Origin: Cyclobacteriaceae bacterium
GTDB taxonomy: Bacteria > Bacteroidota > Bacteroidia > Cytophagales > Cyclobacteriaceae
Direction of reading: 5' to 3'
Assembly (NCBI GenBank): GCA_027067135.1
Contig: JAMOMJ010000064.1
Span: 1-39,607 of the forward strand
Length of the DNA: 39,607 bases
In this document: positions 3,405 through 35,324 of the stretch, piece after piece
Layout: each line of letters starts with the position of its first letter
How positions within the stretch are numbered: position 1 is the first letter of the stretch
The notes under the pieces: model-generated
Databases searched by the model: none
Told to the model about the DNA's origin: nothing
The model's input: the letters and a program-made list of their open reading frames with translations, nothing else
Made by a program: the position numbers and the translations under genes

Positions 3405-6400
3405 TTAATTTTTAACATCAGTATTTTCTTTCTTGTTCTTCATAAATGCATCAATAATAAATGCGTATTGTTTGGCTAATGAGCGAATATAATCGAACCT
3501 GCCTGCCTGGCCACCATGCCCCGAATGTAGTTTTGTTAAGAGTAAAATTTCATTATCATCGGTTTTGGTGGTTCTTAATTTAGCCACCATTTTTGCCGGT
3601 TCCCAATAGCCCACTTGCTGGTCACTTAGGCCAGTAGTAAATAGCAAAGTGGGGTAATCTTGTGCAGTTACATTATCGTAAGGAGAATATGATTTCATAT
3701 ACTTAAATTGCTTCTTAATATGAGGGTTGCCCCATTCTTCGTACTCGCCTGTTGTCAGGGGCAGTTTGTCATCAAGCATCGTATTAATAACATCTACAAA
3801 AGGCACATCTAACACAATTAACTTGTATAAATCCGGAGCCATATTGGCCACAGCTCCCATTAATAAGCCGCCAGCACTTGCACCTTCGGCTACAATATTT
3901 CCTTGGGTGGCAAACTCTTCGTCTATTAAGTATTGGGTACAATCAATAAAATCGTAGAAAGTGTTTTTCTTATTAAACATTTTTCCATCTTCGTACCAAT
4001 AATAGCCTTTATCTGTTCCTCCTCTAATATGAGGAATAGCCACGGTAAACCCTCTTTCGAGCAAAGGGTAGAGGTTGGCATTAAACCCAACGGACATAGA
4101 GGAGCCATAAGACCCATAACTGGTTATAAATGCTTTTTGGGTCTTGTTTTCTTTGCTTTTTCTAAGATGCTTATTATAGATTAAGGTCATCGGAATTTCC
4201 TCTCCATCTCGAGCCTTAACCATTACTCTTTCAACCTTTATGCCCCACTTGAAAACAGGAAATGGTAATTTTTGTTTTTTTAGAATCGTCTTTTCTTGCT
4301 TTGGAATATTATAAGAGTAGGTGATACGAGGTGTTTTGGGTGTACTATAGCTTATTCTTATGGAATCAATATCATACTCACGCGTACTATGCACACTGGC
4401 GTGATAAATGTCTTTTTTAAACTTTACAGTATGTTCTTTTCCAGAAGTCCTTTCAATAATTCGAACTCTATCTTGTGCATTGTCTTTGTCTGTTATTACA
4501 TAATACTTCTTTAAAATGTCGAGGCCAACCAACAAATGGTCTTTGTCTTCAGGTAAAACCACCTTCCAGTTGCTCTTATCATAATTGGCTGTATCAACAA
4601 TAACCACTTTATAATTTTTGGCATTTTCGTTAGTGGTTATAAAGAATTTATCATCTACTTGAGCTACCGAATAGTTTATACCTTGCTCTCGAGGATAAAT
4701 AAGCTTTAGCTTTGGAGTAGGTTCATTTATTCTGAAAAAATAGGTTTCTGAAGTTACTGCACTAGACGAACTGATAAAGACCATATCTTCTGCTTTATTC
4801 TTATATGCGCTAACACTAAATTTTACATCATCTTCTTTGTATATAACTCTGTCCTCTTTTTGAGGTGTATTTAATATATGAATTTTAGCGATGTATGACC
4901 TATTCGTTTTTTTCTCTTGTTCTGTATAAATAAATGATTTATTATCAATCCATATAAACCCAGCTGCGTTAAGAACGGAGTCTTGAAGAAGCTCACCAGT
5001 AACTAAATTTTTAAACTTTAAAGTAGATTTACTGCTTCCCGTAGTGTTTTCAGAAAAGGCAATTAAATTATCATTTGGGCTTGGGCTTGGAAAACCAGCA
5101 GCATAGTAATCATATTTCTTTGCCAGTTCACGTGTATCAAGCAAAATTTCTCTTTTTGTACTATCTAAGTTGGTTCTAAAGTAAACGGGGTATTCTTCTT
5201 CAAAGCCATATTCCATATAATATTTATATCCTCTTATTTGTGTGGGCAAAGAGGTGTATTCTTTCTCCACATGGCTAAGCATTTCTCGGTAGAGTATTCG
5301 CTCTTGTTTTCGTAAAGGAATAAAATAATTTTTAGCATACTTATTTTCAGCATCGATGTACTCCATTACCTCATTATTATATAATGGGGCACTTGTATCT
5401 TTTAACCATGCATAATTATCGGTGTAAGTTTTACCGTGAATAGTGTAGGTGTGTGGAATAATTTTAGCTACTGGCGGCCTAAGAGTAGTGTCTTTTTGAT
5501 GTTTATCTTCAAATTGTTTTTCCAATGACTTCTTAATTTCCATTTCTGTCCTAACCTCTTGTGCAATTTTATACTGAGGATGTTTTGTCATATAATCGAC
5601 CCAGAAGCTTGCATTATAGGATAAGGGCAAGTCATATATATGGTTGAAATCTGAATTGGCAAAAAGGCTGTCTTTAGGGAAGGGTTTTATTCTCTGAGGT
5701 AAATTGTCTTCAATAAAAAGCTCTGCTACGGCAGAATATGGAGTTATTTCATTTTCAATGGTATCCACAAAAATAAATTCATCCTCCATTCGCACATAGG
5801 CAAGGCTATACTTGTCATCAAACTTTTTATACTCAAGATTTATTTTATAATCAAAGTGTTTAATGGCCATGGTATCGTAGCCGCAGATATATTTTTTAAG
5901 GTGGGAGGGTACGTTATAATTAATGCTGGTGGCTGCAAATGTTTCTTGATCAATATGTACTTGACCCTCTAAAAAATACCTACTGCTCATCCAAAGCCTT
6001 GGCTTTTTCTTTTTTAATCTCTTATCAAGATAGGCTTGATCGTATTTAGATTTAAATGTGAGTACATATTCCCAACCATTATCTTTTGTTTCTTGTTCAC
6101 TAACCGAATAAATGTATTTATTCTTTTTGCCCAAACGCATAAATTTCTCTAGGTATTTTATGCGATCTCTTCCTATGAGATTTAGAGGGCCTCCTTCTAT
6201 ATTAGCATCCATTCGCTCTCGCGTTAGGTTATCACTCGAACGAGAGTCAATTATTTTGGCATCTTCCCGTTTTAGAGTCCTGTTAGAAAAATGGTAACGA
6301 TGTAGCCTGTCACCTCCATAAGAGGAAGAAAAGCCAGTAGTCATTATATTGTATCCGCTTCTGTCAAACTCTTTCCACTTAAATCGCTCTCCTTGGTAGG

Positions 6401-9735: not shown

Positions 9736-9767
9736 TCTCCCGCAGATTACGCAGATAAGCGCAGATT
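9736..9767. repeat. GxxExxY-associated repeat, copy 1
   Basis: The segment starts TCTCCCGCAGATTACGCAG and ends GCGCAGATT. It is inverted relative to copy 2 at 9910-9938 and is related to both arms of copy 3 at 10366-10427. It begins 7 bases after the valS stop and could also end that transcript. Confidence 0.75.
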
Positions 9768-9777
9768 TTTTTTTGAA

Positions 9778-9828
9778 ATGGAAACTTACTTGGTAGGTAT
9801 TGTATTTATCTACATAGGTAAGTTCCAT
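9778..9828. repeat. Inner inverted repeat between GxxExxY-associated repeats
   Basis: ATGGAAACTTACT (9778-9790) is mirrored by AGGTAAGTTCCAT (9816-9828), with one base extra in the left arm. It sits inside the segment bounded by repeat copies 1 and 2, so the block is a nested palindrome. No coding potential is evident between 9768 and 9909. Confidence 0.55.
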
Positions 9829-9909
9829 GTACAACGGTATTTTAAAAACCCCATAATATTGGCTCTACTATCGTTCCCTTCATATAACGCATAATATTGC
9901 CTATTTTTT

Positions 9910-9938
9910 CTGCGTTAATCAGCGTAATCTGCGGGAGA
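9910..9938. repeat. GxxExxY-associated repeat, copy 2
   Basis: CTGCGTTAATCAGCGTAATC followed by TGCGGGAGA is the inverse of copy 1. Copies 1 and 2 bound a roughly 200-base non-coding block downstream of the GxxExxY gene. Confidence 0.75.
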
Positions 9939-32483: not shown

Positions 32484-32573
32484 ATGGCTCCTAACGGGAG
32501 ATGTTACATTAAAAACGACCCAGATGCTTGTTGGGTTAACCAATTGATTACAAGCAATTTATATTATGAGTGA
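32484..32573 (+). CDS. Possible leader peptide overlapping the rpsA start
   Basis: An ATG at 32484 opens a 29-codon frame (MAPNGRCYIKNDPDACWVNQ then LITSNLYYE) whose TGA (32571-32573) lies just past the rpsA ATG at 32566, so the two frames overlap by 8 bases. It starts about ten bases after the inferred transcription start. Translation is unproven; the overlap would allow coupling or competition with S1 translation. Confidence 0.35.
   Translation: MAPNGRCYIKNDPDACWVNQLITSNLYYE
32488..32555 (+). promoter_or_regulatory. Possible structured leader of rpsA (pseudoknot candidate)
   Basis: CTCC-TAACG-GGAG (32488-32500) forms a small hairpin. ACCCA (32518-32522) can pair with TGGGT (32532-32536), and GCTTGT (32526-32531) with ACAAGC (32550-32555). 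The last two pairings cross, so they form either an H-type pseudoknot or alternative hairpins. They end 10 bases before the S1 ATG, where folding could gate translation. Autoregulation of S1 is known in other bacteria, but this structure is an inference. Confidence 0.4.
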
Positions 32574-34854
32574 AGCTCAAAAAAAAGCAGAAGAAGCGAA
32601 GGCTGAACCTGCTAGTGTCTCTGCTAAAGCTACAAGCGACACGCAGAAAACAGAAGAAGTAGCTGCTAAAACAGAAGCTGCTCCTGAGGCTGCCCCTAAA
32701 AAAGCCGCAGCAAAAAAAACAACTAAAGCTAAAGCCGAAACAAAAGAACCTAAAAAAGAGGTTGTTGAGGAAGTAAAAGCCGAAGAAGTAGTTGAAGAGG
32801 TAAAAGAAGAAGTTCCAACTGACTCTGCTGAAGCCAAAGACGAAACGCAGAAAGCAGAAAAAACCTCAAAACCTAAAAAAGAAGAAATCGTTGTAGAAGA
32901 ATTTGACTGGGATGCAGTATCTACCAAAGGATTTGGTGATGGATACTCAACCAAGGAAAAGGAAGATTTGGCTAAAATGTACGAAGAAACCCTAGGTACT
33001 GTAACCGAACGCGAAGTAGTTCAAGCAACAGTAGTTAGTGTTACTAACAGAGACGTAATCCTTAATATAGGGTTTAAATCTGATGGCTTGGTTTCTGCTT
33101 CTGAATTTAGAGATACTCCTGATCTTAAAATTGGTGATGTTGTTGAAGTGTATGTAGATGAGCAAGAAGACGTTAAAGGTCAGCTAGTTCTTTCTCGTAG
33201 AAAAGCAAAAATCGTTAAAGCTTGGGAAAACATCCAATCTTCTCACGATGATGATACTGTAATTGAAGGTTTTGTTAAACGTAGGACTAAAGGTGGTCTT
33301 ATTGTAGATATCTTCGGTGTTGAAGCGTTTTTGCCAGGATCTCAAATTGATGTTAAACCTATCCGTGATTTCGATATTTTTGTTGGTAAGTCAATGGAGG
33401 TTAAGGTTGTAAAAATTAATTATACAAATGATAACGTAGTTGTTTCACACAAAATATTAATCGAGAAAGATCTTGAGAAACAACGCGTTGAAATATTGAA
33501 TAACCTTGAAAAAGGACAAGTATTAGAAGGAGTTATCAAAAACATGACCAACTTCGGTGTATTTATCGATTTAGGTGGTGTTGATGGTTTACTTCATATT
33601 ACTGATATTTCTTGGGGTAGAATTAACCACCCAGAAGAAGTACTTAAATTAGATGAAACTGTAAAAGTTGTTGTTCTTGAATTTGACGAGGATAAAAAAC
33701 GTATCTCTCTAGGTATGAAACAACTTACTTCTCACCCTTGGGATGCACTAGCAGAAGGATTAGAAGTTGGATCTAAAGTAAAAGGTAAAATTGTTAATGT
33801 AGCTGATTACGGTGCGTTCTTAGAAATTCAACCAGGTGTTGAAGGTTTAATTCACGTTTCTGAAATGAGCTGGTCGCAGCACTTACGTAACCCAACTGAC
33901 TTTATGAAAGTTGGAGACGAAATGGAAGCTGTGGTACTTACATTAGATCGTGAAGATCGTAAAATGTCGCTTGGTATCAAGCAATTAACTGAAGATCCCT
34001 GGTTGAAAACTGACGTTGTTTCTAAATATGGTGTTGGAACTAACCACACAGGAATTGTTCGTAACCTAACTAACTTCGGTTTATTTATCGAGCTTGAAGA
34101 AGGTATTGATGGACTGGTACACGTTTCTGATCTTTCCTGGACTAAGAAAATCAAACATCCATCTGAGTTTATTGCTGTTGGCGGTGAGTTAGAAGTTCAA
34201 GTACTTGAGTTAGATGTTGAAAATAGAAAACTGGCGTTAGGTCATAAGCAATTAGAAGAAAATCCTTGGGATACTTTTGAAACTGTTTTTGAAATTGGTT
34301 CTACACATAAGTGTACTATCAATAACAAAACGGATAAAGGTTCTGTACTTGAATTACCTTATGGTATCGAAGGTTTCGTAAATGCTAAGAACTTAACCAA
34401 AGAAGATGGTTCTAAACCTAGCGTTGGAGAAGCTTTAGACTTTAAAGTAATAGAGTTCTCTAAAGGAGAGAAGCGAATTTTATTATCGCACACTGCAACG
34501 TATAAAGAAGATGAAAAACCTGTAGCTCCTAAGAAAAAGGCTGCTGGCAAGAAAAAAGCGACTAGTTCTAGTAATCAAGAAGCAACTTCTAGCCTAGGTG
34601 ATTTATCTGCACTTTCTGCTTTAAAGGAGCAAATGGATAAGCCTGCTGAAAAGCCTGCTGCCCAAAAAGCGCCAGCTAAGAAGAAAGAAGAAGCTCCAAA
34701 AGAAGAAGCTCGCCAGAATGACGAAGTTGGGCAGGCGCCAAAAGAAGAGGCTGCTCCTAAAGCTAAAAAAGCAACTAAAGCAAAAGCTAAAAAACAAGAA
34801 CCAAAAGCAGAAGCAGCCCCAAAGGCTGATGCTGCTGATGGGGAAGATAAGTAA
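32566..34854 (+). CDS. rpsA: 30S ribosomal protein S1
   Basis: A 762-residue S1, longer than the E. coli protein (557). Six S1 RNA-binding domains occupy about residues 149-216, 232-300, 315-387, 400-474, 489-563 and 576-645. The first 110 residues and the last 115 are Lys/Glu/Ala-rich and probably disordered. S1 brings mRNA to the 30S subunit. In the C-terminal tail, residues RQNDEVGQ (716-723) interrupt two APKEEA repeats; their DNA is GC-rich and palindromic and looks like an inserted repeat that stayed in frame. The gene has its own promoter and a structured leader, and a strong palindrome follows the stop. Confidence 0.96.
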   Translation: MSEAQKKAEEAKAEPASVSAKATSDTQKTEEVAAKTEAAPEAAPKKAAAKKTTKAKAETKEPKKEVVEEVKAEEVVEEVKEEVPTDSAEAKDETQKAEKTSKPKKEEIVVEEFDWDAVSTKGFGDGYSTKEKEDLAKMYEETLGTVTEREVVQATVVSVTNRDVILNIGFKSDGLVSASEFRDTPDLKIGDVVEVYVDEQEDVKGQLVLSRRKAKIVKAWENIQSSHDDDTVIEGFVKRRTKGGLIVDIFGVEAFLPGSQIDVKPIRDFDIFVGKSMEVKVVKINYTNDNVVVSHKILIEKDLEKQRVEILNNLEKGQVLEGVIKNMTNFGVFIDLGGVDGLLHITDISWGRINHPEEVLKLDETVKVVVLEFDEDKKRISLGMKQLTSHPWDALAEGLEVGSKVKGKIVNVADYGAFLEIQPGVEGLIHVSEMSWSQHLRNPTDFMKVGDEMEAVVLTLDREDRKMSLGIKQLTEDPWLKTDVVSKYGVGTNHTGIVRNLTNFGLFIELEEGIDGLVHVSDLSWTKKIKHPSEFIAVGGELEVQVLELDVENRKLALGHKQLEENPWDTFETVFEIGSTHKCTINNKTDKGSVLELPYGIEGFVNAKNLTKEDGSKPSVGEALDFKVIEFSKGEKRILLSHTATYKEDEKPVAPKKKAAGKKKATSSSNQEATSSLGDLSALSALKEQMDKPAEKPAAQKAPAKKKEEAPKEEARQNDEVGQAPKEEAAPKAKKATKAKAKKQEPKAEAAPKADAADGEDK
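34708..34739 (+). repeat. REP-like segment inside the rpsA tail
   Basis: Inside rpsA, CGCCAGAATGACGAAG followed by TTGGGCAGGCG has ends CGCC/GGCG and shares the words CAGAATGACG and GGCAGGC with the REP-like element near 955-1009. It codes RQNDEVGQ, unlike the surrounding Lys/Glu/Ala repeats, and is flanked on both sides by DNA coding APKEEA. Confidence 0.5.
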
Positions 34855-34865
34855 TTAATTCGATA

Positions 34866-34889
34866 CCACCCCGATAATTATCGGGGTGG
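34866..34889. terminator. Perfect palindrome after rpsA
   Basis: CCACCCCGATAA pairs perfectly with TTATCGGGGTGG, giving 12 base pairs on paper. It lies 12 bases after the rpsA stop. Only a weak T-run (TTGCTTTAT) follows, so it may stop transcription or stabilise the 3' end. Confidence 0.75.
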
Positions 34890-34955: not shown

Positions 34956-35026
34956 GGCGTTGTGGCCGAGTGGCTAGGCAGAGGTCTGCAAAACCTTGTA
35001 CAGCGGTTCGAATCCGCTCAACGCCT
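34956..35026 (+). tRNA. tRNA-Cys (anticodon GCA)
   Basis: The acceptor stem GGCGTTG pairs with CAACGCC (35019-35025), with T as the discriminator base. The D-arm is GCC...GGC. The anticodon arm is GAGGT-CTGCAAA-ACCTT, giving GCA. The T-arm is AGCGG-TTCGAAT-CCGCT. No CCA is encoded, so CCA must be added later. Confidence 0.95.
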
Positions 35027-35149
35027 CATTATAAGCCTCCGCTAGCTAGCGGAGGCTTTTTTTGTGCATAAAAATCTGTTGAAACTTGTTTCAGAAAGAT
35101 TTTTATGCACAAAAAAAGCGATGATTGTAAATCATCAAGGCTTATAATG
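35027..35149. repeat. Nested palindromic element directly after tRNA-Cys
   Basis: The outer arms CATTATAAGCCT (35027-35038) and AGGCTTATAATG (35138-35149) are perfect inverted repeats. Inside are three palindromes: a 13-base-arm hairpin (35033-35058), a perfect 21-base-arm hairpin (35057-35077 with 35097-35117) enclosing TGAAAC/GTTTCA, and GATGATT-GTA-AATCATC (35120-35136). The first inner hairpin shares bases with the outer arm, so the two are alternative folds. The element begins at the base after the tRNA discriminator. Confidence 0.85.
35033..35063 (+). terminator. Rho-independent terminator of tRNA-Cys
   Basis: A perfect palindrome with arms AAGCCTCCGCTAG and CTAGCGGAGGCTT (35033-35058) is followed by T residues to 35063. 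It starts 7 bases after the tRNA. Its left arm also belongs to the outer arm of the 35027-35149 element. Confidence 0.85.
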
Positions 35150-35298
35150 TTGGTTCACCCAAAACCGGATCAGCGGAGCTAATCCACTTCAAAGTCAAAA
35201 GTTGAAACTTGTTTCAGAAAGATTTTTATGCACAAAAAAAGCGATGATTGTAAATCATCAGGGCTTATAATGTTGGTTCACCCAAAACAGGATCAGCG
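35078..35298. repeat. 98-base direct repeat, two copies, 123-base period
   Basis: Copy 1 is 35078-35175 and copy 2 is 35201-35298. Both start GTTGAAACTTGTTTCAG and end GATCAGCG. I see two mismatches (CATCAAGG/CATCAGGG and AACCGG/AACAGG). They are separated by 25 unrelated bases. Each copy holds the GATGATT...AATCATC hairpin and the right arm of the long hairpin; copy 2 lacks the left arm. No coding frame was seen. Confidence 0.9.
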
Positions 35299-35324
35299 AA
35301 ACAAACCTCTTTATGGCCTGCGTC

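Follow-up and report, generated by a model that had tools for sequence, protein, structure and literature searches.

Genes for tRNAs are common landing sites of bacterial islands, and they also receive phages such as the mycobacteriophage Ms6, a full phage with its own integrase; to our knowledge, no structured non-coding unit is found at Ms6-type phage sites. Integrons form tandem arrays, and their attC sites carry core boxes, RYYYAAC and GTTRRRY, at the two ends of the stem, while REP/RAYT repeats occur as many similar copies dispersed in the extragenic spaces of one genome. The Islander publication (PMC4383910) describes tDNA islands that restore their target and leave the displaced fragment at the far end, and its catalogue demands an integrase, so that gene-less units as small as the one considered here would not be seen. 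The Ms6 study places the crossover at tRNA-Ala in the T-loop (PMC1762012), and work on attC sites reports a structure that is conserved despite variable sequence, together with strand-specific folding (PMC2727003). By their working principle, tDNA islands and integron attC sites are the nearest systems to the element that we describe below.

The window, a stretch of 39,607 nucleotides from a Cyclobacteriaceae bacterium (contig JAMOMJ010000064.1), contains a tRNA-Cys (GCA) gene on the plus strand at 34956-35026 according to its Rfam match (34956-35027 according to ARAGORN), with an S1-like gene (32566-34854) on one side and pyrR-like (35450) and pyrB-like (35985) genes on the other, all three named from their translations. 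Behind this tRNA, the occupied target, lies a plus-strand block that is probably an integrative element without coding capacity, some 165 bp long and inserted in the 3′ end of the gene, which would restore the tRNA and supply its terminator. The original prediction had described a nested palindrome at 35027-35149, and most of its geometry was confirmed. The block starts at 35027, one base past the discriminator at 35026, and its outer stem, P1, has perfect 12-nt arms, the left one (35027-35038) being the tRNA trailer and the right one (35138-35149) its complement. Hairpin 1 (35033-35058), predicted with 13-base arms, is perfectly palindromic over its 26 nt and, together with seven consecutive T at 35057-35063, constitutes the intrinsic terminator of the tRNA; its outer 6 nt (35033-35038) are common to P1, with whose pairing they compete, as had been foreseen. 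The long hairpin, P2 (35055-35119), is indeed perfect, with arms of 23 nt (35055-35077 and 35097-35119) rather than the expected 21, an inner stem, and a CTTG apical loop (35085-35088), and it pairs the T-run with an A-run at 35111-35117. Hairpin 3 (35120-35136) has the anticipated 7-nt arms (35120-35126 and 35130-35136) around a GTA triloop and adjoins the A-run.

The predicted extent was real but too short, since the element continues to about 35185 and its right part is tandemly repeated. After P1 comes a 17-nt spacer (35150-35166), which is C-rich in many relatives, and then a T-arm-like tail hairpin at 35167-35185, GG-ATC-(AGC GGA GCT)-AAT-CC, that is, GGATCAGC-GGA-GCTAATCC, which is presumably the right end of this element. 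A tandem half copy of 35078-35182 occupies 35201-35305 (period 123, 95% identical) and includes a second, decayed tail at 35290-35307. No copy of the tRNA-Cys 3′ end was found after the tail in the window. The window copy is probably an aged one, without a displaced tRNA copy and with its right half duplicated in tandem.

Folded as a single strand, 35027-35149 is predicted to form a four-way junction of P1, hairpin 1, P2, and hairpin 3, P1 being present in both the ssDNA and the RNA fold. The minimum free energy is -43.8 kcal/mol as ssDNA (z -12.3) and -62.0 kcal/mol as RNA (z -11.2), and in neither case did any of 200 dinucleotide shuffles equal it. The fold is far from chance, and the block is not a lone terminator.

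The tRNA-Cys locus could be located in four other genomes of the genus (G001 to G004; the genome of the window is G000). In G001 and G002, the architecture is that of the window with different letters, including a compensatory change in the tail (AGT/ACT instead of AGC/GCT), and behind the tail there is a copy of the tRNA-Cys 3′ end, GCTCAGCGCCTC, preceded by a small inserted hairpin and followed by a second terminator. In G003, hairpin 1 and the tail are retained and everything between them is missing; the tmRNA of the same genome is followed by an element (found at E 0.017), with an exact copy of the tmRNA end, AATCCCTGCGACTCCAC, after its tail. The search for an empty site that had been suggested succeeded in G004, in which tRNA-Cys has no element and both flanks are kept, rpsA and, opposite to it, pyrR and pyrB being the same neighbours that the gene has in the window. 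Either this site was never occupied, or its element may have been lost completely. Thus, full (G000), remnant (G003), and empty (G004) states are visible at one rpsA-tRNA-Cys-pyrR locus of a single genus.

As exact sequences, the arms of the window element occur only at this locus in their own genome, and for this reason we replaced the sequence search with a search for structure, which did find other copies in other genomes. R1 is a covariance model of P2 and hairpin 3 built from 11 tRNA-Ser elements, without the tRNA and without the tail. Its alignment contains 12 pairs with double changes, and its covariation score was reached by none of 500 shuffles; the slide control of covariation favours R1, as its structure was taken from one of its own sequences. 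The window, which was outside the training set, matches R1 at 35054-35135 with 40.6 bits (E 1.1e-6). In other genomes, R1 finds 45 places, 38 of them directly behind a tRNA called by ARAGORN: of 118 family genomes, 10 have matches, at 16 places (12 directly behind a tRNA), and of 395 phylum genomes, again 10 have matches, at 29 places (26 directly behind a tRNA). Both genome counts are lower bounds, as the first look of the survey misses known positives, including the window. These places add Phe, Glu, and Leu to the tRNA types, and in one genome (G690), six places lie at six different tRNAs. In total, one fold can be traced through the phylum behind thirteen tRNA types and tmRNA, and it comprises an outer stem, the terminator hairpin of the tRNA, a long stem with a CTTG-type loop, and a small hairpin, with letters that vary by locus.

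RNAalifold did not recover P1 from 12 elements aligned with MAFFT, as its arms were out of register there, and we therefore tested this stem by comparing own with mismatched arm pairs. In a set of 51 distinct elements, from which identical loci had been removed and in which only distances of 100-200 nt were kept, 45 have P1 arms complementary over at least 8 nt (median 11), compared with 4.4% of mismatched arm pairs. Hairpin 3 was not detected by our script in 18 of these 51 elements, nor hairpin 1 in 9. Family elements are related, and counts over them, here and below, are accordingly not independent. The palindrome of the window is a member of a family that extends across Bacteroidota and stands nearly always behind the 3′ end of a tRNA or tmRNA.

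The arrangement of a T-run after hairpin 1 and an A-run before hairpin 3 raises the question of whether we are merely looking at an ordinary bidirectional terminator that became palindromic by convergent evolution. The terminator scan of the window does find a plus-strand site at hairpin 1, and hairpin 3, absent from the list of that scan, might also end minus-strand transcription. Yet no inverse arm exceeds 8 nt at the ends of the other tRNAs located in this genome, and perfect inverse arms that span 9 nt or more and begin no further than 8 nt from the tRNA end were seen at 23 of 47 tRNAs in R1-found loci (a set that includes some tRNAs not adjoining an element) and at 0 of 31 control tRNAs. 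Moreover, neither a T-arm-like tail nor copies of tRNA ends play any part in termination, and we regard this explanation as very improbable.

The tail of the element mimics a T-arm. When the T-arm, GG-TTC-G-AAT-CC, is placed beside the tail, GG-ATC-hairpin-AAT-CC, it can be seen that a hairpin stands where the T-loop TTCGAAT has only a G. Covariation is evident in the stem of this inserted hairpin (ACC/GGT, GAC/GTC, AGC/GCT, AGT/ACT, AAC/GTT, ATC/GAT, ATT/AAT, and ACA/TGT), and the letters outside the tail core match the tRNA at several loci (for instance, GAG/CTC in L185 and TGG/CCA in L073, but not in L055). Once three R1 places with one common sequence (L208, L216, and L223) are left out of the 45, a strict tail rule fits 21 of the remaining 42, and most of the other 21 seem to carry variant T-arm-like hairpins, a reading made by eye and not a count. 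With one mismatch allowed, the tail occurs at 9 places in 7 of 148 family genomes, each of which follows either a whole tRNA or the 3′ fragment of one; a reversed control pattern gave 0. The strict pattern GGATCARYGAARYTAATCC was found in none of 390 order genomes, and the tail of the window does not fit it either; the tail is more variable than this pattern. Among phylum genomes outside the class of the window, five loci (L210, L217, L221, L226, and L230) carry a variant tail, GGCTAACG...CGTAATCC, behind tRNA-Ser.

A scan for exact tails in 84,980 species genomes returned 74 stretches, compared with about 2 expected by our own arithmetic, and by their titles these belong mostly to groups of Bacteroidota, with a few from Gemmatimonadetes, Chlorobiota, Ignavibacteria, Algicola, and Schlesneria. 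Our script placed a same-strand tRNA or tmRNA upstream of the tail in 54 of the 74, at a distance of 121-172 nt in 48 of those 54, and the types comprise Ser, Pro, Arg, Cys, Val, Gln, Met, Tyr, Lys, and tmRNA. In the other 20, it found no tRNA near the first tail. One of them (L051) is an artefact of a chance match, and its exact tail follows tRNA-Gly; of the remaining 19, ten have their first tail less than 190 nt from the edge of the stretch (L032, L042, L045, L048, L058, L059, L061, L071, L078, and L094), five contain what looks by eye like the 3′ fragment of a tRNA or tmRNA (L033, L035, L063, L089, and L091), two have doubtful tRNA traces (L072 and L093), and two have none (L075 and L076). 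One of these last two, L076:5073-7290, has tail-like hairpins such as GGGATCAACGAAGTTAATCCC beside non-tRNA hairpins and is the clearest case away from tRNA genes. Tails frequently stand in tandem arrays, with between 1 and 11 tails per genome in the 15 genomes searched whole, and the longest array, of nine (L090, 3544-4990 of the turned locus), lies behind one tRNA-Ser in units of about 124-133 nt and of more than one type. The exact tail was found in none of the viral contigs, and no phage or plasmid record contained DNA like that of the window, which speaks against a mobile element.

At many loci, the letters past the AATCC of the tail reproduce the 3′ end of the same tRNA. An exact copy of at least 8 nt beyond ATCC is present in 12 of 59 distinct loci (those left after the removal of identical loci), whereas shuffled pairings gave a mean of 0.33 and a maximum of 3 in 2000. 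In a second test, copies running from the T-loop to the discriminator (16-18 nt) with at least 85% identity, were found at 26 of 108 tRNA loci, a set that includes some without an element, and 18 of them are exact. In R1-found loci, 9 of 47 tRNAs have a displaced copy, compared with 0 of 31 control tRNAs; the null is not empty, as exchanging the tRNA end for that of a different isotype still produces a "copy" in 69 of 2350 cases (2.9%). Several copies, for example in L197, L195, L047, L041, and L085, have a terminator-like hairpin behind them, and most loci have no copy of a tRNA 3′ end. We interpret the displaced copy as the mark of integration into the T-loop, and the T-loop TTCGAAT of the tRNA-Cys in the window as the presumed crossover site.

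Could such copies have arisen without any mobile unit, through template switching at the tRNA hairpin that duplicated the trailer and the T-arm in inverted and tandem form? Several observations would agree with local mutation of this kind: the right arm of P1 is an inverse copy of the trailer, there are tandem half copies in the window and at several other loci, the tRNA-Cys site of G003 resembles a palindrome deletion, and the trailer at the empty site of G004 resembles those of G000 and G003. In addition, 8 of the 26 copy loci (L184, L013, L185, L066, L028, L224, L197, and L196) have, behind the copy, a trailer similar to that of the element (z >4), which is also to be expected from local duplication. 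However, no clear similarity of this kind is present in 17 of the 26 (z <2.7; the one left has z 2.9), and the tail and the P2/hairpin-3 model are each found again at different tRNAs throughout the phylum, so that we consider local mutation quite unlikely.

Another conceivable origin of the block is a larger island or phage, now gone, of which it would be the right-hand attachment footprint. Displaced tRNA ends are a normal island mark according to PMC4383910, and islands with a tyrosine integrase use the same tRNA ends, as in G105; integrase genes also adjoin a tRNA-like fragment and an element in L035 and L199. Nevertheless, the copy starts 146-175 nt behind the tRNA in 25 of 26 cases (77 nt in L028), which means that the unit has a nearly constant length, with a conserved fold inside it, and lost islands would leave no common structure. 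We thus find a footprint of this type extremely improbable. In favour of integration, relatives at many tRNAs, displaced copies of tRNA 3′ ends, and an empty orthologous site support two of the three guesses of the original prediction, a mobile palindromic element and a tRNA-anchored insertion.

The third guess, a processed RNA, leads to the question of which strand and which molecule fold. In double-stranded DNA, a cruciform would tolerate G.T and A.C equally. On the plus strand, which codes for the tRNA, the wobbles of P2 are instead strongly biased, with 37 G.T vs 8 A.C (23 vs 2 elements, p 2e-5); in P1, the bias is not significant (15 vs 8; 11 vs 6 elements). Among the P2 loops of the 51 elements, CTTG occurs 20 times and TTTA 6 times, while the reverse complement CAAG occurs once, and hairpin 3, detected in 33 of the 51, has a GNA triloop in 11 and the reverse form in 1. 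On the basis of the P2 wobble bias, the P2 loops, and the triloops of hairpin 3, the strand that folds is the plus strand, in single-stranded form. These data, as well as the covariation, fit RNA as well as ssDNA, and it could be argued that read-through of the tRNA terminator produces a structured RNA, which might for instance serve the processing of tRNA 3′ ends or be a small RNA, with the tRNA copies as by-products. Its predicted RNA fold is also far more stable than that of shuffled sequences (z -11.2), and CUUG is a stable RNA loop. Still, most of the structure lies beyond hairpin 1, the intrinsic terminator of the tRNA, the tRNA 3′ copies would be left unexplained, and in the window and 15 loci, only tRNA and tmRNA exceed the gathering threshold of Rfam. 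Furthermore, in DNA, Py-T-T-Pu and GAA loops rank with the most stable ones, and TTTA and GAA-type loops suit DNA more than RNA. For the GCGAAGC-type DNA hairpin (CGCGAAGCG), extraordinary stability is reported in PMC10527192. We consequently favour single-stranded DNA over RNA as the folded molecule, given the position of the terminator and the stability of the Py-T-T-Pu and GAA loops in DNA; a structured RNA seems unlikely, and a processed RNA is not favoured by the terminator in particular.

At the level of the family, the fold stands behind many tRNAs and tmRNA, its end mimics the T-arm, and a copy of the tRNA 3′ end follows the tail at some loci. Integration would be explained if a putative site-specific recombinase, acting in trans, exchanged strands in the T-loop, pairing GG-TTCGAAT-CC with GG-ATC-hairpin-AAT-CC. 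The incoming unit would bring a new tRNA 3′ end, a trailer, and a terminator (hairpin 1), thanks to which the tRNA would stay functional, and the old 3′ end would be displaced to the far side, behind the tail. By analogy with integron attC sites, the recognition structure may be the plus strand folded as ssDNA, with P1, P2 and its CTTG loop, and hairpin 3, which would explain why the fold and the loops are kept and the sequence is not. Both the direction of change and any present-day activity of the elements are likewise inferred.

The likenesses to known systems are considerable, but none of them is complete. As in tDNA islands, the target is the 3′ part of a tRNA or tmRNA gene, which is regenerated, with the displaced fragment at the far end; this was observed in the family (the 26 of 108 and 12 of 59 loci, and G001 and G002) and not in the window copy, and the orthologous site is occupied in G000 and G003 and empty in G004, complete loss in the latter being possible. 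In contrast to those islands, the element has only about 165 bp, no genes, no encoded integrase, a conserved fold, and a hairpin inside the far copy of the T-loop. Like attC sites, it keeps a structure while its sequence varies, it folds in a strand-specific manner, and its arrays recall those of integrons; unlike them, it targets the T-loop of tRNAs, and it is the tRNA-bearing strand that its folding favours. Inspection of the window by eye found no pair of attC boxes, as GCTCAAC lies inside tRNA-Cys and GTTGGTT does not fit. Lacking an integrase and, in the window, attC boxes, the element can be filed under neither system. REP/REPIN and MITE-type repeats are similarly short, palindromic, gene-less, and probably mobilised in trans, but they are dispersed between genes, whereas our element is tied to tRNA ends, has different letters at different tRNAs, and makes a copy of the tRNA end rather than a short target duplication. 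By sequence it has a single locus in its own genome, and the numbers of tails per genome given above are also unlike those of REP/RAYT repeats. A MITE has terminal inverted repeats that match an autonomous transposon; the P1 arms are inverted repeats that are locus-specific, and the partners sought were tyrosine integrases. With attachment of the Ms6 type it would share the placement of the crossover in the T-loop.

We tentatively suggest that the family may represent an undescribed class of mobile DNA, although this broader reading is less likely to be right than wrong: gene-less units that recombine into the T-loops of tRNA and tmRNA genes through T-arm mimicry, are recognised by their folded single strand and not by their sequence, and can build tandem arrays or flank host-like genes. 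Among the matches listed in the open-access literature, there is no published description of such elements; this novelty is judged from that literature and Rfam, and descriptions elsewhere could exist. If the suggestion is true, it would constitute a second system besides integrons in which DNA folding is a recombination signal, and if the folded strand is the substrate, structure-guided recombination outside integrons becomes directly testable. There are also consequences for annotation, as the elements supply the terminators of tRNAs and mimic tRNA ends.

A unit of about 165 bp has no room for an integrase gene. Our partner search, which covered tyrosine integrases, compared an integrase query with 1,783 ORFs of the loci and gave five matches, all outside the unit. 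Two of them are the query island itself, at the tRNA-Arg of G105 (L188:1151-6289), where tRNA-Arg and its displaced 3′ fragment are separated by 5 kb with a tyrosine integrase-like gene; behind the fragment comes the palindromic element, and island and element have one target in common. In two other loci (L035:395-2023 and L199:63-1582), the start of an integrase-like gene lies a short way upstream of a 3′ fragment resembling that of a tRNA, which an element follows, and these genes could belong to a helper or merely to islands at the same tRNA. The fifth match, in L026, is far from its element. The integrase genes of L188, L035, and L199 may be regarded as leads only.

Two further loci have a pair of elements at one tRNA-Ser enclosing about 2.3 kb (L050, with motifs at 4829 and 7157 on the minus strand) and 3 kb (L180, 2630-5942). 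The enclosed genes are host-like, encoding an FG-GAP repeat protein in the former and a short-chain dehydrogenase and an AraC-type regulator in the latter, and the arrangement looks as though elements could flank gene cassettes. Elsewhere in the window, the terminator scan lists a terminator-like palindrome, CCACCCCGATAATTATCGGGGTGG, behind the S1-like gene (34866-34889), and at 9736-9938 there is an inverted repeat with 30-nt arms that are 90% complementary and separated by 143 nt.
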